Assembly: GCA_902591485.1 (NCBI GenBank)
Contig: CACJAV010000003.1
Location: 56,406-120,405 of the forward strand
DNA: 64,000 nt
Direction of reading: 5' to 3'
Source: an uncultured Alphaproteobacteria bacterium
GTDB taxonomy: Bacteria > Pseudomonadota > Alphaproteobacteria > HIMB59 > GCA-002718135
Positions 7,469 to 64,000 of this stretch are shown here, piece after piece; position 1 is the stretch's first letter, and each line of letters starts with the position of its first letter. Below the pieces are notes generated by a model, which worked only from the letters and a program-made list of their open reading frames with translations, searched no databases and was not told where the DNA came from. A program made the translations under genes and the position numbers.

Positions 7469-8395
7469 TTGCGTGAAAAAAATAAATTAAATTCTGAAGA
7501 TATTGCTTTAGGCATTAGGAGAAGAGTATTTGAGCATTGTATAAAAAATAATGGTGCTTATCTGAGTCAAGCGTGTTCTTCCGCGGAACAACTTGCTTGG
7601 TTGTATAACGAAGCATTAAATATTGGTGACTCAATTATGCCGTCCATTCCAGAGACTTTTTCTGGCGTCCCTCATATTAATAATAAAAATTATAAAACTG
7701 GAGCAGGTTATAATGGGCCCATTTCATCAGAATATGATAGGTTTATATTTGCTCCAGCCCATTATGCTCTTGTAGCTTATGCAACTTTAATTGAAGTGGG
7801 ACGAATGGCTCCTGAAGGTTTATCAATGTTTAATCAGGATGGGTCGTCAGTTGAAATTATTGGAGCAGAACATTCACCAGGTATGGAAATGCATAATGGC
7901 ACTTTGGGTATTGGGTTATCAACTGCAGCAGGCATAGCTTATGGAAGAAAATTAAATAAAGACTCCGGAGATACTTGCGTATTTATGTCTGATGGAGAGC
8001 TTCAAGAAGGGCAAATATGGGAGGCACTTCAAGTCAGTGTTTACTATAAGCTTGATAACCTCTGGGCAATCGTTGATGTTAATGAGCAACAAGTTGACGG
8101 GGCTATGAGTGATGTTTTGGATATAGGGAATATTCAAAAAAAAATAAATTCTTTTGGAGCAAAATGTATTGAAATAGATGGTCATGATATTGAGGCCATG
8201 AGACAAGCAAAAAATGAAAAGCATAAAGATCAACCTCTCATTATTCTTGCAAGAACTTCTCCTTACAAAGGTATGCAATATTTGAAAAAAAGATTCCCAA
8301 GATTGCATTATGTAAGATTTAAATCTGAAGAAGAGAGAAGTAAAATGAATTTAGAAATCTCAAAAGAATTAGGCATAGATCCAATAAAGTACTAA
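7469..8395 (+). CDS. Transketolase, N-terminal (ThDP-binding) subunit
   Basis: GAEHSPGMEMHNGTLGIGLSTAAGIAYG and FMSDGELQEGQIWEAL...VDVNEQQVDG; TTG start. Confidence 0.85.
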   Translation: MREKNKLNSEDIALGIRRRVFEHCIKNNGAYLSQACSSAEQLAWLYNEALNIGDSIMPSIPETFSGVPHINNKNYKTGAGYNGPISSEYDRFIFAPAHYALVAYATLIEVGRMAPEGLSMFNQDGSSVEIIGAEHSPGMEMHNGTLGIGLSTAAGIAYGRKLNKDSGDTCVFMSDGELQEGQIWEALQVSVYYKLDNLWAIVDVNEQQVDGAMSDVLDIGNIQKKINSFGAKCIEIDGHDIEAMRQAKNEKHKDQPLIILARTSPYKGMQYLKKRFPRLHYVRFKSEEERSKMNLEISKELGIDPIKY

Positions 8396-8396
8396 A

Positions 8397-9401
8397 ATGA
8401 TTGAAATAGTAAATAAACCATACAGTTATACATTCAAAAACTACGCATCTAAAAATAAAAAAATATTATGTTTATCTGGAGATCTTACATCTTCTTGTGA
8501 AGTAGATTCTTTTAGAGATGAATTTCCAAATCAATTTGTTTCTATGGGTATGGCTGAACAAAATATGATGAGTTTTGCTGGTGGATTATCAATGAGTGGT
8601 TTTATCCCTTTCATCCACACCTTTGGGGTTTTTACATACCGTAGACCATATGATCAACTGCTTGCATCTATTGCCTATCCTAGAAGAAAAATACGTATTA
8701 TGGGTTTTCTGCCTGGGATAACAACACCAGCAGGAATGACCCATCAAGCTATAGAAGATATTTCAATCATGAGAACAATACCTAACATGACCGTGATAGA
8801 AACTGGTGATGCAACAGAAGTGGAGAGTATATGTGAAGTAGCAGATAAAGTAGATGGTCCTGTTTATTGCAGAATGTTAAGAGGAAGTGTTCCTAGACTT
8901 TTTGATACGCCTCTCAAATTAAGTGACATTAGGGTTTTAAATTCTGGAACAGATATTTTATTGATAACATCAGGTATTTGTACTGAAGAAGCATTAAGAG
9001 CAAGAGCGGCATTAGTTAATGCAGGAATTTCAATTTTACATCTTCACGTGCATACATTTAAACCTTTTAATGAAGAAAAAATTTTAGATTTATTAACTAA
9101 TGTAAAATTAGGAGTAATTACGATGGAGAATCATTTAGTTAATGGTGGTCTTGGTACAATGATTTCTGAAATAATATCAAAAAATGGTTTGCCAAAAAAA
9201 TTAATCAAACTTGGGTTAAAAGACACATTTGCTCATGGAGGATCTAAACAATATTTAACCAAATACTACGGTTTTGATGCATACGCATTGATTAAATCTA
9301 TAGAAAAATTTATAGGACAAGAGTTAAATATTTTAGAAGAAGATTTAGAGACTGCGCGAATTGAAAACGTACACTCTCTGTCTAAAGCTGAGGCACTGTA
9401 A
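8397..9401 (+). CDS. Transketolase, C-terminal (pyrimidine-binding) subunit
   Basis: FVSMGMAEQNMMSFAGGLSMSGFIPFIHTF; partner of the upstream gene. Confidence 0.85.
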   Translation: MIEIVNKPYSYTFKNYASKNKKILCLSGDLTSSCEVDSFRDEFPNQFVSMGMAEQNMMSFAGGLSMSGFIPFIHTFGVFTYRRPYDQLLASIAYPRRKIRIMGFLPGITTPAGMTHQAIEDISIMRTIPNMTVIETGDATEVESICEVADKVDGPVYCRMLRGSVPRLFDTPLKLSDIRVLNSGTDILLITSGICTEEALRARAALVNAGISILHLHVHTFKPFNEEKILDLLTNVKLGVITMENHLVNGGLGTMISEIISKNGLPKKLIKLGLKDTFAHGGSKQYLTKYYGFDAYALIKSIEKFIGQELNILEEDLETARIENVHSLSKAEAL

Positions 9402-54520: not shown

Positions 54521-54597
54521 GGCGGAGTAGCTCAGTTGGTCAGAGCGCACGGCTCATATTCGTGATGTCGGGGGTTCAAATCCCTCCTCCGCTACCA
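54521..54597 (+). tRNA. tRNA with CAT anticodon, probably elongator tRNA-Met
   Basis: Cloverleaf folds: GGCGGAG/CTCCGCT acceptor, GCTC/GAGC D-stem, CACGG-CTCATAT-TCGTG anticodon arm, GGGGG-TTCAAAT-CCCTC T arm, encoded CCA. tRNA-Ile2 not fully excluded. Confidence 0.88.
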
Positions 54598-54619
54598 GTT
54601 TTTGATTTATATATTTATT

Positions 54620-54647
54620 TTGACCATTTAAATATAAAGTGTAAAAG
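54620..54647 (+). promoter_or_regulatory. Candidate sigma70-type promoter before tRNA-fMet
   Basis: TTGACC (54620-54625), 16-bp spacer, TAAAAG (54642-54647); tRNA starts 11 nt after the -10. Confidence 0.4.
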
Positions 54648-54657
54648 AAAAAAATAC

Positions 54658-54734
<77 letters not shown>

Positions 54735-54743
54735 ATTAGTCAC

Positions 54744-56150
54744 ATGTTTGAAAATTTGCACAATTTAAATAACAATGTTGCATTTATAGACGGTGATAAA
54801 AAAATAAAGTATTCTAAATTACAAAAAGACGTCATAAATCTTAGTAATAAAATTCCAACTAGAAGTTTATTTTTGATAATTTGTAATAATTCCTATCAAT
54901 CAATAAAAAACTATATAGCTTCGATAAAAAATAAATACATATCAATTTTAATTGATGAAAAAGTAAATGAAGAATATTTAAACGAATATATATCAAGATA
55001 CTTACCAGATTTTATATCTGTATCAAATACAATCGAAATTAATACAAAATTATATAAAGTTTTGATTGAAGATAATCACAATATTATTTATGCATTAAAA
55101 ACAAAAATTGATAGATATTTTAATAAAGACCTTGCAATATTAATACCTACTTCTGGCAGTACTGGATCACCTAAGTTTGTGAAATTATCATTCAACAATT
55201 TAAACACAAATACAAAAACAATAATAAAATATTTGGATATAACGCCAAATGATAAAACAATATTATCTTTGCCTTTTAGTTATTCTTATGGTTTATCAAT
55301 AATCAATACGCACATTGAAAAAAATGCTACAATTATATTAACTGCATATTCTTCAATTCAAAAAAATTTTTGGGATTTATTTAAAAAACATAAAGACATT
55401 ACAAATTTTTCAAATGTGCCATTAGTTTATCAATTTTTAAAACAACTTAAAATTAAAATATTTGAAAATAAAAGTTTCCGATTTTTTTGTGTAGCTGGTG
55501 GACACTTGGATTACAATACCGCAAAATATATTTTTGAAAATTGTAAAAAAAATAAAATAAGATTCTTTATTATGTATGGGCAAACTGAAGCAAGCCCAAG
55601 AATGTCTTTTGTTAGGCCATCAGATCTTCCCAATAAATTAGGAAGCATAGGAAGGCCTATAAACATGGGTAAGTTTTCTCTAATTAACAAACAGAAATAT
55701 CAAAAATATAAAAAAAATACAGTAGGTGAATTAGTATATTCCGGTCCAAACGTTTTTATTGGATATTCAAATAATTATCATGATTTAGGTTTGAAGAGCG
55801 CAAAATATAAATATCTTAAAACTGGTGATCTTGCATATATAAAAAATAATAATTATTATATTGTTGGTAGGATTAGTAGAATAATTAAATGTGCGGGCAT
55901 AAGAGTCAATCTTGATGACATTGAAAAAGAGCTGATTAATTATAATTTTCATACAGCCATTATAGGAACTGATGATAATATGAATATTTTTATAGAAAAT
56001 GAATCTAGTAAAAATCAAGTCATGAAAATTTTAAAAACAAGATACAAAATTCATCCAAAATTTATAAATATTTTCTTAAAAAAAATTCCAAGGTTGAAAT
56101 CAGGAAAAATAGATTATAAAAAATTAAAAAATTATCATGAAAAATATTAA
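54744..56150 (+). CDS. AMP-dependent acyl-CoA/acyl-ACP synthetase (ANL superfamily)
   Basis: AILIPTSGSTGSPKFVKLSFNNL (P-loop), MYGQTEASPRMSF, YLKTGDLAYIKNNNYYIVGRISRIIKCAGIRVNLDDIE. Confidence 0.9.
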   Translation: MFENLHNLNNNVAFIDGDKKIKYSKLQKDVINLSNKIPTRSLFLIICNNSYQSIKNYIASIKNKYISILIDEKVNEEYLNEYISRYLPDFISVSNTIEINTKLYKVLIEDNHNIIYALKTKIDRYFNKDLAILIPTSGSTGSPKFVKLSFNNLNTNTKTIIKYLDITPNDKTILSLPFSYSYGLSIINTHIEKNATIILTAYSSIQKNFWDLFKKHKDITNFSNVPLVYQFLKQLKIKIFENKSFRFFCVAGGHLDYNTAKYIFENCKKNKIRFFIMYGQTEASPRMSFVRPSDLPNKLGSIGRPINMGKFSLINKQKYQKYKKNTVGELVYSGPNVFIGYSNNYHDLGLKSAKYKYLKTGDLAYIKNNNYYIVGRISRIIKCAGIRVNLDDIEKELINYNFHTAIIGTDDNMNIFIENESSKNQVMKILKTRYKIHPKFINIFLKKIPRLKSGKIDYKKLKNYHEKY

Positions 56151-57189
56151 TAAAAATAAAATTTTTGATTATTCCAAAAATCAGAAAGTTAAGATTTTCA
56201 CACCTTTGATTGTATCAAAAATGAAATTTCACCTACAAAAAAACAATAATTTAAAACTTTTTTTTAAAAAAATAAATCAAATCACTCAAAAAAAATCATT
56301 AGAGAATTATCCATTTATGCCTGTAAGGTTGTTTAAAAAATTTAAATTAACAAGCATAAATGACAAGGACATCTATAAAATAATAACTTCATCTGGCACT
56401 TCAGGAGATGTATCTAGAATTTATTTAAATAAAAAAAATGCTAAAGATCAAATTGAGGTTTTGTATAATATTGGATCAAGTTTCCTAGGAAAACAAAGAT
56501 ATCCTATGATAATACTTGACTCAAAAAAAACTAATCAAAATAAGAATGATTTCAATGCAAGAAGAGCAGCTGTAATAGGCTTTTCAATTTTTTCCAAAAA
56601 AAATTATTTCATTTTTGATGAGGATCAAAATTTAAAATTAGAATACTTAAAAAAGATTCTAAGTGAAAATAAAAATAAAAAAATAATTATATTTGGCTTT
56701 ACTGACATTGTTTGGAATTTTATTCAAACACTTGAAAAGACAAAATTAAAATTAAATTTATCGAATTGTATTTTATTACATGGCGGTGGTTGGAAGAAAT
56801 TAGCAGACAAAAAAATTACCAATGATAAATTTATCAATAAGATAAAGAAAAATACAAGTATTAAAAAAATAATTAATTATTATGGAATGATTGAACAAAC
56901 AGGTTCTATTTTTTTTGAGTGTGAGCACAGATATTTCCATACATCAATTTACTCAGATATTTTGATTAGGGATAAAATGTTAAATATTCAAAAATTCGGA
57001 AAAGAAGGAATAATTCAGCTACTTTCTATTGTCCCTTCTAGTTATCCAGGTAATATAATTTTAACAGAGGATATGGGAACAATATTTGGTGAGGATGATT
57101 GCATTTGTGGAAGAAAAGGAAAATATTTTAGAGTATCTGGAAGAATTCCTAATGCTGAGTTAAGAGGTTGCAGTAATGTTAATTTATGA
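56137..57189 (+). CDS. LuxE-like acyl-protein synthetase
   Basis: YPFMPVRLFKKFKLTS, IITSSGTSGDVSRIYLNKKNAKDQIEVLYNIGSSFLGKQRYPMIILDSK; C-terminal AELRGCS. Confidence 0.88.
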   Translation: MKNINKNKIFDYSKNQKVKIFTPLIVSKMKFHLQKNNNLKLFFKKINQITQKKSLENYPFMPVRLFKKFKLTSINDKDIYKIITSSGTSGDVSRIYLNKKNAKDQIEVLYNIGSSFLGKQRYPMIILDSKKTNQNKNDFNARRAAVIGFSIFSKKNYFIFDEDQNLKLEYLKKILSENKNKKIIIFGFTDIVWNFIQTLEKTKLKLNLSNCILLHGGGWKKLADKKITNDKFINKIKKNTSIKKIINYYGMIEQTGSIFFECEHRYFHTSIYSDILIRDKMLNIQKFGKEGIIQLLSIVPSSYPGNIILTEDMGTIFGEDDCICGRKGKYFRVSGRIPNAELRGCSNVNL

Positions 57190-58372
57190 AAAAGATAATA
57201 TTTTAAAAATTAAAAATAAAATGGATAAATCATATCAAGTGTTAGAGACATTTGATAAAGTTGTTATTATTTTTTTTAATGATCTTTACAAATTACTTAA
57301 TAAGAAAAAAATAATCAATGCTTATCCTGAACTACTCTTTCTTAAGTTTTGGTTAAGACCAGGGAATTTAAATTTAATTTACAAAAATAGTTTTGATAAA
57401 TTAAATTTTAGGGCTCGATTAGGATGTATCTTTCATATTGCACCCTCTAATACGCCTTTAAATTTTTTTTATTCTTTATTTTTTGGTTTAGTTGCTGGCA
57501 ATATAAATATCGTTAGACTACCATCTAAAGATTATGACTCTCTTAAAATATTTTTAAGTTGTTTAAAAAAAATTATTAGCAAAAAAAAATTCAAAATAAT
57601 CTCAGATCACATTTTTTTTGTTAAATATGAAAAATCTTTAAAGTATACTGAATACCTATCTGGTTTTTGTGATATGCGAGTTATTTGGGGTGGTGACAAT
57701 ACCATAAATAGTATCAGAAAAATCCCAATTAATCCTAAAACAAGAGAAATTACATTTCCAGATAGAGTTTCCATAGCTATTCTTGATTTAAAAAAATATA
57801 AGTTTTTAAACATTGTAGAAAAACAAAAATTAATTAAAAAATTTTACGGTGATTTGTTCTTTGTTGATCAAAATGCATGCACTTCTCCTCAAATAATTTT
57901 TTGGGTGAATGGCTTTTCAGAAAATGTAAGAAATGATTTTTGGGAAAGGATCGAAGATCATGCTAAAAAAAAATATGATTTGCCTGAAATTGCAACATTA
58001 GATAAGTTAAATAAATTCTATGAAGACTCTTTAAATTTAAATATATCTAACAAAATTAATCTTCATTCTTTATGCTATAGATTAAATATTAAAAAATTCC
58101 CAAGAAATATCGATTCTCTAAAAGGTAGATGGGGATATTTTTATGAATTTAATTTAAAAAAAATAAATAATTTAAATTTAATTTTACATTCAAAAATGCA
58201 AACTTGTGTCTATTTTGGTATTACTAAAAAAGAAATTTTAGACGTGGTAATGAAAAATAAAAGTAATGCAATTGATAGAATTGTTCCTGTTGGCCAAGCT
58301 CATAATTTTGATGGATATTGGGATGGTTATGATTTATTCAAATCGATGACTAGAATTATAAGGAGTAATTAA
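57176..58372 (+). CDS. LuxC-like acyl-CoA/acyl-protein reductase
   Basis: GCIFHIAPSNTPLNFFYSLFFGLVAGNINIVRLPSKDYDS; VDQNACTSPQIIFW catalytic Cys context. Confidence 0.88.
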   Translation: MLIYEKDNILKIKNKMDKSYQVLETFDKVVIIFFNDLYKLLNKKKIINAYPELLFLKFWLRPGNLNLIYKNSFDKLNFRARLGCIFHIAPSNTPLNFFYSLFFGLVAGNINIVRLPSKDYDSLKIFLSCLKKIISKKKFKIISDHIFFVKYEKSLKYTEYLSGFCDMRVIWGGDNTINSIRKIPINPKTREITFPDRVSIAILDLKKYKFLNIVEKQKLIKKFYGDLFFVDQNACTSPQIIFWVNGFSENVRNDFWERIEDHAKKKYDLPEIATLDKLNKFYEDSLNLNISNKINLHSLCYRLNIKKFPRNIDSLKGRWGYFYEFNLKKINNLNLILHSKMQTCVYFGITKKEILDVVMKNKSNAIDRIVPVGQAHNFDGYWDGYDLFKSMTRIIRSN

Positions 58373-58822
58373 ATGCAGCTTGATTTTAATCAACTTTTGC
58401 AAGTGCAACAAAATAGACCACCATACTTAATGATGGATCATGCAACAAGAGTTGAGCCAGGCATTTTATCGGAGGGTTATAAAGATCTCAAAGAGGATGA
58501 ATGGTTTTTTAAGGTGCATTGGAAAAATGATCCAAATATGCCTGGCATGCTGCAGATTGAATCTTTAGTGCAAATTGGATCGTTAGCAATATTAACTTTA
58601 CCAAATTTATCTGGTAAGATTTTATACTTAACATCAGCAAATAAGCTTAAATTCCAAAGAAAAATCATTGCAGGTGATAGATTGCATTTAAAAACTAAGT
58701 TGATAAGTTGGAAAAGAGGTATAGGTAAATTCGAAGGTGAAGGTTTGGTGAAAAACCAACTGGCTTGCAAAGCTGAATTTACTCTGATATTACCTGAAGA
58801 AGTAAATAAATATCAGCGCTAA
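58373..58822 (+). CDS. FabZ/FabA-like hotdog-fold dehydratase
   Basis: PPYLMMDHATRVEPG...GYKDL...WFFKVHWKNDPNMPGMLQIESLVQIG; candidate catalytic His/Glu retained. Confidence 0.78.
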   Translation: MQLDFNQLLQVQQNRPPYLMMDHATRVEPGILSEGYKDLKEDEWFFKVHWKNDPNMPGMLQIESLVQIGSLAILTLPNLSGKILYLTSANKLKFQRKIIAGDRLHLKTKLISWKRGIGKFEGEGLVKNQLACKAEFTLILPEEVNKYQR

Positions 58823-59907
58823 TGCCAATACATTCATCTTTATTAAAAAAACCAAGACTTGTAAAAAAACTACGGTCTTTTTATAAATATGTTAATGAGA
58901 ATGATGGACAAGTTGGTACTAAAACTCGTGGAATAGATTTAAATTTAAATAATGCCTGTAATTTAAGATGTAAATATTGTTTTACTAATTCACCAAAAGG
59001 TGAAAGAGTTAAGGATCGTTTACCATTGGATGTGCTAGCAAGAGTAGCTGATGAGGCTGATGAATTAGGATATTTTGAATTTGATTTGCAAGGTGGTGAG
59101 CTTTTACTAAGGCCAGATATATTATTTGAATCATTGGAGGCAATTAAACCTGAAAGGTTTTATCTCTACTTAACTACCAATGGATTTCATTTAGATGAAA
59201 AAATGGCAAAAAAGCTAGCTGATGCTCATGTCAGTAGAGTTTCGGTGAGCATAGACAGCATGGATGAAGCAACTCATGATAGAATAAGGGGAAGAAAGGA
59301 GTCATGGAGGAAAGCAATTGAAGCTCTTAAACATGTTCAAGAAGCAGGTATGGATCCTTATCTTAATATAACAGTAGGTCACTATAATGCTTTTGATCCT
59401 GCCTTTGAGGAATTACTTAAATATTCTAAAGATCAAAAATATAAAACATTGATTAATGTGGCTGTACCTGCAGGTATGTGGTCAATGATGTCTGAAATTA
59501 TGCTAGATGATAAAGACAGAGAACATTTATACAATTTAAGAAAAGAATATAAAAACTTAATTAGAAATATTTGGAATCCTTTTGACAAAACTCATGAAAA
59601 ATCAATCGGATGCACAACAGTCAATAGATTATACATTACACCTATAGGAGATGTCTTGGCATGTCCTTATGTTCATATTAAAATTGGTAATGTTATTGAG
59701 CAATCATTGAGAGAAATAGTTGAATATGGATTTTCTATAAAGCATTTTAATGAGCATAGCCCAATTTGTCTTGCAGGTGAAAATAAAGAATTTGTTAAAA
59801 AATACTTATCTAATTCAGGCCAGTCTATTTTTAAACCAGCTTTAGCAAAAGATATATTCCCAGAAGCGGATTTCATCGATAAGTCTAATTTAAAAATTCA
59901 TTATTAA
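58822..59907 (+). CDS. Radical SAM protein with SPASM/twitch-like C-terminus
   Basis: NNACNLRCKYCFTNSPKGERV (CxxxCxxC), FDLQGGELLLRPDI, IGCTTVNRLYITPIGDVLACPYVHIKIGNV. Confidence 0.9.
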   Translation: MPIHSSLLKKPRLVKKLRSFYKYVNENDGQVGTKTRGIDLNLNNACNLRCKYCFTNSPKGERVKDRLPLDVLARVADEADELGYFEFDLQGGELLLRPDILFESLEAIKPERFYLYLTTNGFHLDEKMAKKLADAHVSRVSVSIDSMDEATHDRIRGRKESWRKAIEALKHVQEAGMDPYLNITVGHYNAFDPAFEELLKYSKDQKYKTLINVAVPAGMWSMMSEIMLDDKDREHLYNLRKEYKNLIRNIWNPFDKTHEKSIGCTTVNRLYITPIGDVLACPYVHIKIGNVIEQSLREIVEYGFSIKHFNEHSPICLAGENKEFVKKYLSNSGQSIFKPALAKDIFPEADFIDKSNLKIHY

Positions 59908-59912
59908 TATAA

Positions 59913-60638
59913 ATGTTAACTGATAAAGTTGCTGTGATTACTGGTGCAAATAATGGTATTGGTAAATCAATTGCTGAAAAATTTATAAGTGAAAATGCAA
60001 CAGTATGGCTTTGTTCAAGAAAAATAGACAAAGATTACTTCCTAGGTATTAAAAAAAAAAATAATATTTTTTTTTTAGAGTTTGATTTTTCAAAGCCTGA
60101 AGAAGTATCATTTGCTGCAAAAGAAATTTTGAAAAATAACTCTAAAATTGACATATTAGTAAACAATGCTGGTATTATTGACACTAACCTTTTTTTAATG
60201 ACTAAACTTGATACAATTAAAAAAATATTCGAAATAAACTATTTTCAACAATTACAATTTACTCAAATAATTATAAAAAAAATGATGAAATCAAAAAATT
60301 CTAGTATTATTAATATTTTGTCTAATTCTGCAATAGATGTCCACGAGGGAAGATTGGCATATTCTGCATCAAAATCTGCAATGTTGCAATCTACTAAAAT
60401 ACTTGCAAAAGAATTAGGTAGATTTTTAATTAGAGTTAATGGAATTGCTCCTGGATTAACTAAAACAAATATGATGACAAATAATCACACTGAAGAAGTT
60501 ATTAATGAAGTTAAAAGCAAAACATTTTTAAAAAAAATTGCTTCAGTTGAGGACATTGCTAATACATCTCTATTTCTTGCTTCAGATTTATCTACTCATA
60601 TTTCAGGTCAAATCATAAGAGTTGATGGAGGTCTCTGA
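59913..60638 (+). CDS. SDR-family oxidoreductase (FabG-like)
   Basis: AVITGANNGIGKSIAEKF, ILVNNAGIIDTN, YSASKSAM, GQIIRVDGGL. Confidence 0.92.
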   Translation: MLTDKVAVITGANNGIGKSIAEKFISENATVWLCSRKIDKDYFLGIKKKNNIFFLEFDFSKPEEVSFAAKEILKNNSKIDILVNNAGIIDTNLFLMTKLDTIKKIFEINYFQQLQFTQIIIKKMMKSKNSSIINILSNSAIDVHEGRLAYSASKSAMLQSTKILAKELGRFLIRVNGIAPGLTKTNMMTNNHTEEVINEVKSKTFLKKIASVEDIANTSLFLASDLSTHISGQIIRVDGGL

Positions 60639-60645
60639 ATTTCAA

Positions 60646-61467
60646 ATGTCTAAACACGAATCAAGTAATTTAGAAGAATTTATTGAAAGAATTAAAATAA
60701 ATATTTTAGAATTAGCACTCTCTGCAAAAGAAAATAGCTCACACTTTGGTGGAAGTTTGTCAACAGTTGAAATGATAGCCTGCATATTTAATAACTTTAT
60801 AAAAAAAAATGAAAATAATAATACTACTGACAGGCATCGCTTTATTCTAAGTAAAGGTCATGGGTGTCTTGCGTATTATGCTGCTTTATGTGATTTGGGA
60901 TATTTTAACAAAAAAGAACTAACTACATTTGAAGGTGATGGAAGTTTTTTACTTGGGCATCCTGTTATTAATAGAAATAAAGGTATTGAATTTTCAACTG
61001 GAAGCTTAGGTATGGGTTTGGGGTTAGGAATTGGCCAAGCAATTTCATTAAAGTTAAAAAATATTAATAAACAAGTTTTTGTATTAATTGGTGATGGAGA
61101 ATGTAATGAAGGATCAATTTGGGAAGCAGCAATGCTTGCTCCTAATTATGACTTAAATAATTTAACAGTATTAATTGATCATAATAAATTTCAACAAACT
61201 GGTTCTAACGAGCAAATTATGAATTTAGGTAACTTGAAAGATAAATGGACTTCATTTAACTGGAATGTAATAGAAATTGATGGTCATAACATTGATGAAA
61301 TTAATTTATCTCTTAAAAAAAGCTTTCCAAATCAAAAACCAAAATTAATTCTAGCAAATACAACTAAGGGTAATGGATTTTCATTTTCTGAAAATAACAA
61401 CGATTGGCATCATAGAGTTCTTACCTCTAAAAATTATGATGATGCGATGAAAGAATTATTGAAATGA
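60646..61467 (+). CDS. Transketolase, N-terminal (ThDP-binding) subunit, second pair
   Basis: SSHFGGSLSTVEMIACIFN, FILSKGHGCLAYYAALCDLG, VLIGDGECNEGSIWEAAMLAPNYDLNNL; start could alternatively be 60625. Confidence 0.9.
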   Translation: MSKHESSNLEEFIERIKINILELALSAKENSSHFGGSLSTVEMIACIFNNFIKKNENNNTTDRHRFILSKGHGCLAYYAALCDLGYFNKKELTTFEGDGSFLLGHPVINRNKGIEFSTGSLGMGLGLGIGQAISLKLKNINKQVFVLIGDGECNEGSIWEAAMLAPNYDLNNLTVLIDHNKFQQTGSNEQIMNLGNLKDKWTSFNWNVIEIDGHNIDEINLSLKKSFPNQKPKLILANTTKGNGFSFSENNNDWHHRVLTSKNYDDAMKELLK

Positions 61468-62429
61468 TTTTTGACCATAAGACAATTAAAAAATTTTCTA
61501 TGATAGGTTCTAGAGCTACCTTTGGTTTAGTTGTTTATGATTTGATTTCTGAAATTGATGATCTTATAGTTTTAACTGCAGATGTCTCTACTTCTGCTGG
61601 TTTAGATCGTTTTAGAAAAAACTACCCAAATAATTATATTGATTGCGGCATTGCTGAACAAAATATGATGAATATTGCTGCAGGAATTGCCAGTGAAAAT
61701 TTTAATGTTATTACAACTACATTTGCTCCATTTCAAACAATGAGATGTTTAGAGCAAATTAAAGTAAATTTGGGATATATGAAAAATAAAGTTACAATGG
61801 TGGGATTAGCAAGTGGTCTTGTTTTAGGACCGCTTGGCTTTACTCATTGTTGTATAGAAGACTTATCTGTTATTAAATCAATTCCAAACATAAACGTAAT
61901 TTCCCCATGCGACACTTTAGAGACAGCAAAATCTGTGATTGCCTCACTAAAAACTAATAATTCTACTTATATAAGATTGACTGGAGGGTCTAACTCACAA
62001 ATAGTGTACAAGGAAGATTATAATTTTGAAATTGGAAAACCTAATGAGATTATTCAAGGTGATGATATTTGTATTTTAGCTAACGGTCCAATGGTAGCTA
62101 ATTGTATGAATGCTGCAGAGTTATTAAAAGAAAAAAATATCTATCCATCTCTCTATAATATCCACACTTTAAAACCACTAGATGAAAATGAAATAATTAA
62201 TATAATATTAAATTCAAAAATAATATTCACAGTTGAGGAGCATTCAATTAATGGAGGATTGTTTTCTTCAATTTCTGAAATTCTATGCAAAAATGGTATT
62301 TTTAAAAAAATTATTCCTTTAAGTATTCCTCATAATTATATAACTTCCGGTAGCTACAATTATATGATAAAAAAATTAAAACTTGACCCACAATCAATTG
62401 CTGAAAGGATATTGAATGAAACAAAATGA
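61464..62429 (+). CDS. Transketolase, C-terminal subunit, second pair
   Basis: IDCGIAEQNMMNIAAGIASENFNVITTTFAPF; LTGGSNSQIV. Confidence 0.9.
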   Translation: MIFDHKTIKKFSMIGSRATFGLVVYDLISEIDDLIVLTADVSTSAGLDRFRKNYPNNYIDCGIAEQNMMNIAAGIASENFNVITTTFAPFQTMRCLEQIKVNLGYMKNKVTMVGLASGLVLGPLGFTHCCIEDLSVIKSIPNINVISPCDTLETAKSVIASLKTNNSTYIRLTGGSNSQIVYKEDYNFEIGKPNEIIQGDDICILANGPMVANCMNAAELLKEKNIYPSLYNIHTLKPLDENEIINIILNSKIIFTVEEHSINGGLFSSISEILCKNGIFKKIIPLSIPHNYITSGSYNYMIKKLKLDPQSIAERILNETK

Positions 62430-62661
62430 AGAAAATTATAAAAATTGTTTTTCTGAAGCTTTTGAAATTGAAATTGAAAAAATCAGTTCAGATTTGGAAT
62501 ATAATGCCATCCCAGAATGGGATTCAATAGGACATATGACGCTTATTTCTGCTCTTGAAGAAAAATTTGACATATCTTTTGAAACAGATGATATAATTGA
62601 TTTTAGTTCTTATAAAAAAGGAATTGAAATTCTCCAAAAATATTCAATAAATTTTAGTTAA
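62416..62661 (+). CDS. Acyl carrier protein
   Basis: 81 aa; IPEWDSIGHMTLISALEEKFDISFETDDIIDF with phosphopantetheine-type DS motif. Confidence 0.88.
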   Translation: MKQNEENYKNCFSEAFEIEIEKISSDLEYNAIPEWDSIGHMTLISALEEKFDISFETDDIIDFSSYKKGIEILQKYSINFS

Positions 62662-63561
62662 ATGAAATTTGATAGAATAAGTGAAAAATTTCATAATAAT
62701 GGTGCACTGTTAATCAATAATGACAAAGGTCACATTAATCAGTTAAATAGAGATGAAATTATAAATGTTTTTGAAAAAACTGGCTTAATTGTTTTTAGAG
62801 GCTTTAATCTTAATCCTGATAAAATATTAGAAACCACAGATATTTATACTAAAACTTATGCTGCTGACGCTCCAAGAAGGCAGCAAATGTATGGAAAAAA
62901 AAATTTAAACACTGTCGATGAAGGGTTTCATGAAATGCCACTTCATAGTGAAGCAAGTTATTCTCCAAGTTGGCCCGAAATACTCTGGTTTTATTGTGTG
63001 CAACCTTCATTGAAGGGAGGGACTACTACACTTTGTGACGGCATCATGTTGTGGAAAAAATTGCCAAATAATATTAAAGATTTTTTTCTATCCAATCCTA
63101 TTGTTTACAATTTAGAGTTTCCAGTAATAAAGAAAAAAAAAGGATATGGTGAAAAAGAATGGCCAATGAATACACTAGGCTCCAGTCACGGTATTCTCGA
63201 TTATGAAAATGGTTTGTTGAAAATAAAACAAACTAGGTTTGCAGTTGCAGAAACAAGATTAGAAAATCTTCTTACTTTTACAAACCATCTAATGATTATA
63301 TTTAAGAATGAGCCTCAAATTAAATCATTAAATCTAGTAAATGGTGAAAAAATACCTCAAAAAATAATTGATGAAGTTAAAAATATTTCTAATAATTTAA
63401 TATATGACTTAGATTGGCAAACTAATGATTTAATAATGCTAGATAACAGAAGGTTTATGCATGGTAGACGAGCATATAAGAAAGATCAAAAAAGAGAAAT
63501 TATAAATATTCAAACTTTAAAAGCTAACTTTAGTTTTGGTTCTACAATAAGAAATATTTAA
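62662..63561 (+). CDS. TauD/TfdA-like Fe(II)/2-oxoglutarate-dependent dioxygenase
   Basis: GLIVFRGFNL, FHEMPLHSEASYSPSWPEILWFYC (HxE), LMLDNRRFMHGRRAY distal His. Confidence 0.83.
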   Translation: MKFDRISEKFHNNGALLINNDKGHINQLNRDEIINVFEKTGLIVFRGFNLNPDKILETTDIYTKTYAADAPRRQQMYGKKNLNTVDEGFHEMPLHSEASYSPSWPEILWFYCVQPSLKGGTTTLCDGIMLWKKLPNNIKDFFLSNPIVYNLEFPVIKKKKGYGEKEWPMNTLGSSHGILDYENGLLKIKQTRFAVAETRLENLLTFTNHLMIIFKNEPQIKSLNLVNGEKIPQKIIDEVKNISNNLIYDLDWQTNDLIMLDNRRFMHGRRAYKKDQKREIINIQTLKANFSFGSTIRNI

Positions 63562-63574
63562 TTAATAATAATTA

Positions 63575-64000
63575 ATGCAAAATCTTCAAATTAATCCTTT
63601 GATCATAAAAGATAAGTGTAAATTAAAAAATTTTGTAAAAAAAAATTGGTCAAAAAATCACTTATTTACAAAAGATGAAACAATTTTTAATTTTCAATAT
63701 CATTACAAAAATAAATTTTCATTTTTAGTTGCTAGAAAAAAATCAGAAATACTTGGAGTGCAAGGATATATTGATTATGCAAAATATAATAAAATTGAGC
63801 ATTCCAAACAAATTTTTCTAGCTTTTTGGTGCGTTAAAACAAATTCAAATTTTGGTATTGGTTTGAAATTGCACAACAAAATTATGGATTTAGTTAAGCC
63901 TTCTTTCGTAGGTATTGTTGGGATAAATGTAAGAGCACTAAAATTACACAAATGGTTAGGATTTAAAGTTTTTAAAATGAGACACCATGTACTTATTTCT
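63575..64000 (+). CDS. GNAT-like acyltransferase, 3' end beyond window
   Basis: 142 codons open to the window end; FLVARKKSEILGVQGYIDY...NFGIGLKLHNKIMD...GINVRALKLHKWLGFKVFKMRHHV. Confidence 0.6.
   Translation, partial: MQNLQINPLIIKDKCKLKNFVKKNWSKNHLFTKDETIFNFQYHYKNKFSFLVARKKSEILGVQGYIDYAKYNKIEHSKQIFLAFWCVKTNSNFGIGLKLHNKIMDLVKPSFVGIVGINVRALKLHKWLGFKVFKMRHHVLIS

Follow-up and report, generated by a model that had tools for sequence, protein, structure and literature searches.

What does a pair of LuxE- and LuxC-like genes do beside a split transketolase (TK), in a cluster in which no luciferase gene is visible? This question is raised by the end of a 64,000-nucleotide (nt) stretch of contig CACJAV010000003.1 from an uncultured alphaproteobacterium (the whole stretch is hereafter called the window), where 11 open reading frames (ORFs) lie on the plus strand at positions 54744-64000. 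A sequence-only reading had proposed an undescribed system here, in which an acyl group is reduced to an aldehyde and extended by a thiamine diphosphate (ThDP) enzyme. By comparing the cluster with its relatives, we found that its TK genes are conserved together with LuxE/LuxC as a single unit. As to its function, we give about even chances to a reading in which the operon combines a tetronate-type acyl module with a ThDP cassette to build an unusual small hydroxyacyl group, bound to its own carrier protein and destined for an amino sugar of a surface glycan.

Gene content of the locus

Families were assigned by Pfam matches above curated cut-offs. The features are as follows.

54658..54734, plus strand: initiator-type tRNA-Met (CAT), the left edge of the module
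54744..56150, plus strand: LIG, AMP-forming acid ligase; PF00501 at 99.9 bits; 31-53% identity across related loci
56137..57189, plus strand: LUXE, acyl-protein synthetase; PF04443 at 165.6 bits; aligns to LuxE 7xc6_E
57176..58372, plus strand: LUXC, acyl reductase; Pfam LuxC at 78.6 bits, middle part only; nearest solved structure 7xc6_A
58373..58822, plus strand: FABZ, hotdog protein like 3-hydroxyacyl-ACP dehydratases (ACP, acyl carrier protein); Pfam FabA-like; catalytic His/Glu
58822..59907, plus strand: rSAM, radical SAM protein with a SPASM-type C-terminus; Pfam Radical_SAM and SPASM
59913..60638, plus strand: SDR, short-chain dehydrogenase; Pfam SDR; YxxxK kept
60622..61467, plus strand: TKN, N-terminal half of a split TK; Transketolase_N; GDG...N ThDP motif
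61464..62429, plus strand: TKC, C-terminal half of the split TK; Transket_pyr and Transketolase_C; catalytic Glu kept
62416..62661, plus strand: ACP; PP-binding, marginal (21.1 bits against a cut-off of 20.8); phosphopantetheine Ser (WDSIG)
62662..63561, plus strand: TAUD, 2-oxoglutarate/Fe dioxygenase-like; Pfam TauD
63575..64000, plus strand: last ORF, cut by the contig end; no Pfam match; 52% identical to the gene in the same place in L008, a locus of the same genus

Neighboring ORFs overlap by up to 17 nt or are separated by 0-5 nt, and only the final gap is larger (13 nt). The sequence-only reading had placed the same-strand cluster correctly but counted ten genes, and its overlaps of 4-17 nt or single-digit gaps hold except for that final gap. 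It had also described the last gene as truncated and GNAT-like; the truncation is real and is caused by the end of the contig itself, whereas the GNAT label found no Pfam match.

The transketolase is linked to LIG and LuxE

A LuxE scan of GTDB genomes yielded 80 loci, to which plasmid loci and further genomes were added. In 20 loci, a TK of the same subfamily lies beside LIG, LuxE and usually LuxC, FabZ, SDR and ACP (the window, L008, L011, L012, L013, L014, L016, L017, L020, L026, L063, L076, L084, L086, L088, L124, L131, L133, L134 and L171). These loci are spread over Pelagibacterales, Rhizobium, Gammaproteobacteria, Myxococcota and Synechococcus, with named hosts including Pseudoalteromonas flavipulchra NCIMB 2033 (L014), Colwellia (L017), Sedimenticola (L020), Synechococcus (L086) and a plasmid of Rhizobium anhuiense T24 (L088).

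Because most of the 20 loci had been reached via LuxE, the fair test was the reverse search, for which we ran a TKC profile against 399 Pseudomonadota genomes and 162 genomes of the host's order. Matches fell into two groups separated by a gap, one above 400 bits and the other at or below 303 bits. The upper group comprised 4 of the 399 and 4 of the 162 genomes, with the window counted in both. Every carrier in this group adjoins LIG/LuxE (3/3 in the phylum draw and 3/3 in the order, window aside), and in one of them, G111, the contig stops inside luxE. The lower-scoring matches, so far as they were inspected, were different split TKs found in other contexts. LuxE of the module subfamily was present in 22 of the 399 Pseudomonadota genomes, mostly without a TK. 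A hand estimate gave about 1e-4 for all three TK carriers (window excluded) falling among the 21 of 398 genomes that carry LuxE, with adjacency not counted.

The reciprocal profile search thus bears out the earlier claim that the LuxE/LuxC and TK genes are one conserved unit. That reading would have been abandoned if either pair were consistently absent from related clusters; the outcome is one-sided, as LuxE/LuxC often occur without this TK but all carriers of this TK that were found have LIG/LuxE. The alternative, that unrelated genes gathered by chance in a hypervariable island, can draw on the variability of the island genes and on the many LuxE/LuxC genes that lack a TK, but it is already contradicted and deserves almost no credence. 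The cluster is not a chance assembly, because it recurs at 20 loci in several phyla, with overlapping genes and reciprocal linkage.

Carriage by phages or viruses was considered and rejected: no relative was found in viral contigs, and there was one distant phage match. The window also holds a second, unrelated split TK (7469-9401), whose TKC is at most 33% identical to the module TKCs and which adjoins deoC-like, aldehyde dehydrogenase, xylulokinase-like and sugar ABC transporter genes; it looks like part of sugar catabolism. Other split TKs of Pelagibacterales (L172, L173) lie 3′ of rRNA-proximal ORFs, next to genes that by eye resemble an HldE-like nucleotidyltransferase, an epimerase and a UDP-galactopyranose mutase.

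ThDP cassettes are exchanged on a common platform

Three kinds of module share the base ACP-LIG-LuxE-LuxC. Kind (a) adds SDR, sometimes with an acyltransferase, and occurs in Actinomycetota, Deinococcus and enterobacteria-like genomes with pse genes. Kind (b), the kind of the 20 TK loci, adds FabZ, SDR, TK and one oxidase; the oxidase slot is filled by rSAM in 9 loci, by a GMC oxidoreductase with a small protein in 10 and by neither in 1, and never by both. The TKs of the rSAM type and of the GMC type form separate clades (support 99/99 and 99/97). TAUD is optional, being present in 5 of the 20 loci. Kind (c) adds FabZ, an acetolactate-synthase (ALS)-like ThDP enzyme and a NeuB-like synthase (L009, L010, L032 and L122). 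The NeuB-like proteins of kind (c) form a clade of their own (100/100), apart from PseI.

The clearest view of exchange comes from two Pelagibacteraceae loci, L032 of kind (c) and L076 of kind (b). Their AAC(3)-like, ACP, FABZ, LIG, LUXE and LUXC proteins are 44%, 80%, 86%, 68%, 66% and 66% identical, respectively, and the middle cassette [GMC-small-SDR-TKN-TKC] of L076 is replaced by [ALS-NeuB] in L032. The LuxEs of kind (c) are not one group, and that of L032 is sister to the LuxE of L076 at 100/100. The ThDP cassettes are thus exchangeable parts on a common platform: base genes that are 66-86% identical accompany different middle cassettes in L032 and L076, and the LuxEs of kind (c) are scattered. 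In several loci, the TK cassette stands between ACP/FABZ and LIG/LUXE.

Several further features of these loci were recorded. In L009, L010, L032 and L122, the NeuB-like synthase always accompanies the ALS-like ThDP enzyme; that of L010, the only one scored, lies below the NeuB/PseI cut-offs. The small protein beside the GMC oxidoreductase (L014, L017, L020, L026, L076, L086 and L088) is about 100-140 amino acids long, very divergent and without a Pfam match. After LuxC, L026, L076 and L083 carry a second FabZ-like gene and an acrylyl-CoA-reductase-like gene, suggestive of hydroxyl removal from the acyl chain. The ACP-SDR-LIG-LuxE-LuxC set is kept across dozens of actinomycete species (L021-L087: Amycolatopsis, Lentzea, Actinoplanes and Kibdelosporangium). 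On a Salmonella plasmid (L091) and on Priestia plasmids, distant LuxE-family proteins occur with AMP-binding and phenylacetate-CoA ligase-like genes, in a different kind of locus.

Active sites of the module enzymes

Alignment of 13 loci showed that the SSGTSG motif and the C-terminal RGCS cysteine (Cys345) of LUXE are invariant, the latter aligning with the GCS of LuxE 7xc6_E. Cys235 of LUXC, within DQNAC(S/T)SP, is also invariant, and the predicted LUXC model (mean predicted local distance difference test score, pLDDT, 88.8) had LuxC of the Photobacterium LuxC-LuxE complex (7xc6_A) as its best solved match. The catalytic His/Glu of FABZ are kept in all loci, and the ACP Ser and the SDR Tyr/Lys are likewise intact. 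rSAM, the most conserved gene (63-90% identity between loci), has CxxxCxxC and three further invariant Cys; its structure model (pLDDT 53.8) was too poor and was left out of the fold search.

In the TK, the ThDP motif, the catalytic Glu and the equivalents of His26, His66 and His100 are present, and the closest solved pair to TKN/TKC is 6yak/6yaj from Carboxydothermus. The phosphate and hydroxyl contacts H461, D469 and R520 of E. coli TktA are replaced by A, L and G in the window; in all 14 module TKs compared they are A or G, L and G, with R358, S385 and H473 kept. We had regarded the loss of these phosphate contacts as a mark of the module and withdrew this, since other split TKs of such islands lack them too. 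The missing contacts may fit an unusual TK substrate, a weak hint given that other island TKs share the loss.

The module lies in glycan neighborhoods

In L131, from the same genus, PseG-like and PseI genes (PseI at 446 bits, cut-off 340) lie directly upstream of LIG. Among 64 flanking genes of eight TK loci, hexapeptide acyltransferases, DegT aminotransferases, UDP-GlcNAc 2-epimerases, UDP-sugar dehydrogenases, CMP-sugar synthetases, glycosyltransferases, NeuB and polysialyltransferase were recurrent. Acyltransferases also occur inside the clusters: AAC(3)-like in L014, L032 and L076, PglD-like in L012 and L020, and LpxA-like in L088. On another contig of the window's host (L180, G000:C12:10500-30499), a NeuB gene scored above its cut-off. 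By eye, its neighbors there are NeuC-like, CBS-domain, cytidylyltransferase-like, iron alcohol dehydrogenase (Fe-ADH)-like, DegT-like and radical SAM-like genes, and the region looks like a nonulosonic acid locus. The earlier suggestion that the product decorates a surface glycan fits these neighborhoods.

At its left edge, the module starts 9 nt 3′ of the initiator-type tRNA-Met gene, and in L008 it begins 10 nt after the equivalent tRNA gene. Base 120405 of the contig is window position 64000, so contig and window end together and the genome assembly holds nothing downstream; the L008 contig likewise stops inside the next gene. Elongator-type and initiator-type tRNA-Met genes are 60 nt apart in the window (54521-54734) and 2.1 kb apart in L008 (6303-8600), with genes for an ABC transporter and a HAD-like protein in between; in each case, the second tRNA precedes the module.

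A proposed pathway and its rivals

The hydroxyacyl reading is built on what the loci show, namely their gene content, glycan context and cassette exchange, the close co-occurrence of the genes and the intact active sites; from these we infer the substrates, step order, ketol donor, product and acceptor sugar. LIG, ACP, LuxE and LuxC would form a tetronate-type base module, in which a small acid, probably two-headed, has a carboxyl activated by LuxE and then reduced by LuxC to an aldehyde. In the simpler forms (the RfbN type of Vibrio cholerae and kind (a)), this aldehyde would be converted to an alcohol by Fe-ADH or SDR. In kind (b), the split TK would instead add a two-carbon ketol to the aldehyde, and SDR together with rSAM, or elsewhere a GMC flavoprotein, would set the oxidation level of the resulting hydroxyketone. 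In kind (c), NeuB would add the carbons of phosphoenolpyruvate (PEP) and the ThDP enzyme would remove CO2, again with a net gain of two carbons. The FabZ-like enzyme could dehydrate a carrier-bound 3-hydroxyacyl chain, an intermediate that would fit kinds (b) and (c), and TauD could hydroxylate it. LIG may attach the other carboxyl to ACP, from which an acyltransferase that differs between loci may pass the acyl group to the amino group of a sugar, probably a nonulosonic acid or of the 4-amino sugar type. The earlier proposal of aldehyde formation followed by ThDP carboligation would fit the intact active sites and the cassette exchange. A more specific version is possible but doubtful: that the module lengthens a carboxylic acid by two carbons on its carrier with no ketosynthase, the LuxE/LuxC aldehyde being taken up by an exchangeable ThDP cassette (either TK plus an oxidase of the flavin or radical SAM type, or a NeuB-like condensation with PEP and then decarboxylation by the ThDP enzyme), with FabZ and transfer to the sugar coming afterwards.

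Several points weigh against the hydroxyacyl reading. The need for both oxidation by GMC/rSAM and reduction by SDR lacks a unique explanation, the TK could act on another carbonyl, and the lost phosphate contacts, being shared with other split TKs, do not single out the proposed chemistry. In L014 (Pseudoalteromonas), the genes on one flank are unrelated to glycans. The window's candidate acyltransferase is its last ORF, cut off by the contig end and without a Pfam match. The link of Aeromonas flagellin masses to lux-like genes, described below, comes from arithmetic, not from a mutant.

Alternatively, the genes could serve two parallel pathways, with LIG/ACP/LuxE/LuxC making a tetronate-like acyl group and the TK pair placing a two-carbon branch on a nucleotide-linked ketosugar. 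YerE-like ThDP enzymes branch O-antigen sugars, the split TKs of miharamycin and amipurimycin are proposed to branch ketosugars (PMC12247030), and a split TK stands beside DegT aminotransferases in polysaccharide clusters (PMC13390465). However, the conserved frame holds no nucleotide diphosphate (NDP)-sugar dehydratase or deoxysugar gene, and the TK cassette sits between ACP/FABZ and LIG/LUXE in several loci and was never found without LIG/LuxE; we regard this alternative as unlikely. Still less probable is a route in which the TK pair gives a C2 (glycolyl-type) unit to ACP, so producing the acyl chain on which LuxE/LuxC work. NapB/NapD supply a C2 unit to ACP in naphthyridinomycin biosynthesis, and the window and several loci have ACP adjacent to TKC, but the operon has no lipoyl carrier domain, TK and ACP are apart in other loci, and the related enzymes are transketolases, such as the closest solved pair, and not like pyruvate dehydrogenase E1.

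In luminous bacteria, the substrates of LuxC/LuxE are C14 fatty acids, and an enoyl-reductase-like gene occurs in some loci (L026, L076 and L083); both would favor the other product considered in the sequence-only reading, a diffusible lipid, here one that arises when a long-chain fatty aldehyde is extended to a hydroxyketone. Set against this are the glycan neighborhoods, the sugar acyltransferases in the clusters, a LuxC far below the cut-off of the long-chain LuxC model (26.7 against 750 bits) and the nearest functional precedents, which act on glycans (PMC4772473, PMC7874193). Since the known relatives work in the acylation of glycans, and the best-known of them has been assigned to a hydroxy acid of four carbons, a substrate such as a fatty acyl chain or lipid is less likely, and we consider this version quite improbable. 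A luminescence or fatty-aldehyde pathway was rejected on context and scores: in the luminescence equivalog models, the window LuxE scored 64.1 against a cut-off of 550 bits and LuxC fell short likewise. As the sequence-only reading had noted, no luxA/luxB-like gene is in the cluster by Pfam; two generic PF00296 proteins are encoded on other contigs of the host, a family also found in E. coli. A search for the luxD thioesterase gave no match, but its control was silent too.

If the hydroxyacyl reading is true, these genes would point to an unrecorded class of N-acyl groups, with genome markers for predicting them and new carboligases for small semialdehydes. In marine bacteria, among them the abundant Pelagibacterales, surface glycans are hypervariable, and the genes behind their acyl groups are poorly mapped. 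Our comparison connects the scattered LuxE/LuxC genes that lack a luciferase partner with a platform for glycan acylation, and reveals a conserved addition to it where ThDP enzymes seem to lengthen the chain with no ketosynthase involved.

Comparison with known systems

The module shares with the LuxC-LuxE fatty acid reductase of Photobacterium/Vibrio the LuxE and LuxC families, the catalytic cysteines and the LuxC fold (7xc6). With the split TKs of Carboxydothermus (6yak/6yaj) and of miharamycin/amipurimycin it shares the two-gene TK, the ThDP motif and the catalytic Glu, whereas the module TKs form the separate group above 400 bits linked to LIG/LuxE; H461, D469 and R520 are replaced in them, as in other island TKs. 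That rSAM might oxidize a secondary alcohol, as radical SAM alcohol dehydrogenases of the BtrN/SpeY type do, is suggested only indirectly, by the GMC dehydrogenase family in the rSAM slot of other loci.

Reportedly, Morona and colleagues in 1995 described rfbKLMNO of V. cholerae O1 as a tetronate pathway. This surface-glycan locus, with 3-deoxy-tetronic acid as its product, combines a carrier protein, a ligase, a LuxE plus LuxC reductase and an acyltransferase; ACP, acid ligase, LuxE and LuxC stand together in one operon in the window, and sugar acyltransferases are present in related loci. The RfbN type is a LuxE-LuxC fusion with Fe-ADH, whereas the window has separate LuxE and LuxC and an SDR in place of the alcohol dehydrogenase, and adds TK, FabZ and rSAM. 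L146 encodes Fe-ADH, an 821-amino-acid LuxE-LuxC fusion and a ligase, which we take to be the make-up of rfbM-N-L; its LuxE part is 29% identical to the window LuxE. A LuxE domain is stated for RfbN, within the proposed O-antigen tetronate pathway (PMC4772473).

In Flavobacterium psychrophilum, wfpC-G are assigned to the O-antigen R1 group (3,5-dihydroxyhexanoyl) and resemble the module in a dedicated ACP and a PglD-type transferase predicted to place a short hydroxyacyl on an amino sugar; there the chain is built by ketosynthases, and LuxE, LuxC and TK go unmentioned in the part of that report consulted (PMC6519341). A lead from Yersinia ruckeri (luxC with legionaminic acid) was dropped as a luxCDABE reporter, and LuxE is not shown among the ACP, ligase and reductase genes found only in Y. 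ruckeri O1.

The closest described sets are in flagellin glycosylation islands (FGI), where ACP, SDR, ligase, LuxE and LuxC lie beside pse genes in Aeromonas (FGI group II; PMC7874193) and the same set occurs in Enterobacteriaceae (PMC4875605). They contain the same five families, in the order ACP, SDR, ligase, LuxE, LuxC, but no TK or rSAM/GMC and rarely FabZ, and 'liposugar' has been suggested as their function; our scans added many more loci with this set. Flagellin of Aeromonas piscicola AH-3 carries a 376.14 Da pseudaminic acid (Pse) derivative and a 102 Da group of undefined nature (PMC7874193). By our arithmetic, 376.148 is Pse5Ac7Ac (316.127) in which C4H6O3 (102.03) stands in place of an acetyl; a tetronyl group has this composition, and both masses would fit a C4H6O3 acyl group. 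This makes an old puzzle testable: are the 102 Da and 376 Da groups of tetronyl type, made by lux-like genes? As the LuxE/LuxC/ACP/ligase part is already on record in these islands and in RfbN, it does not qualify as an undescribed system; no description of LuxE/LuxC joined with a TK in a glycan cluster was found in the open-access literature, and the claim to novelty should be limited to the ThDP cassette that the tetronate-type platform carries.

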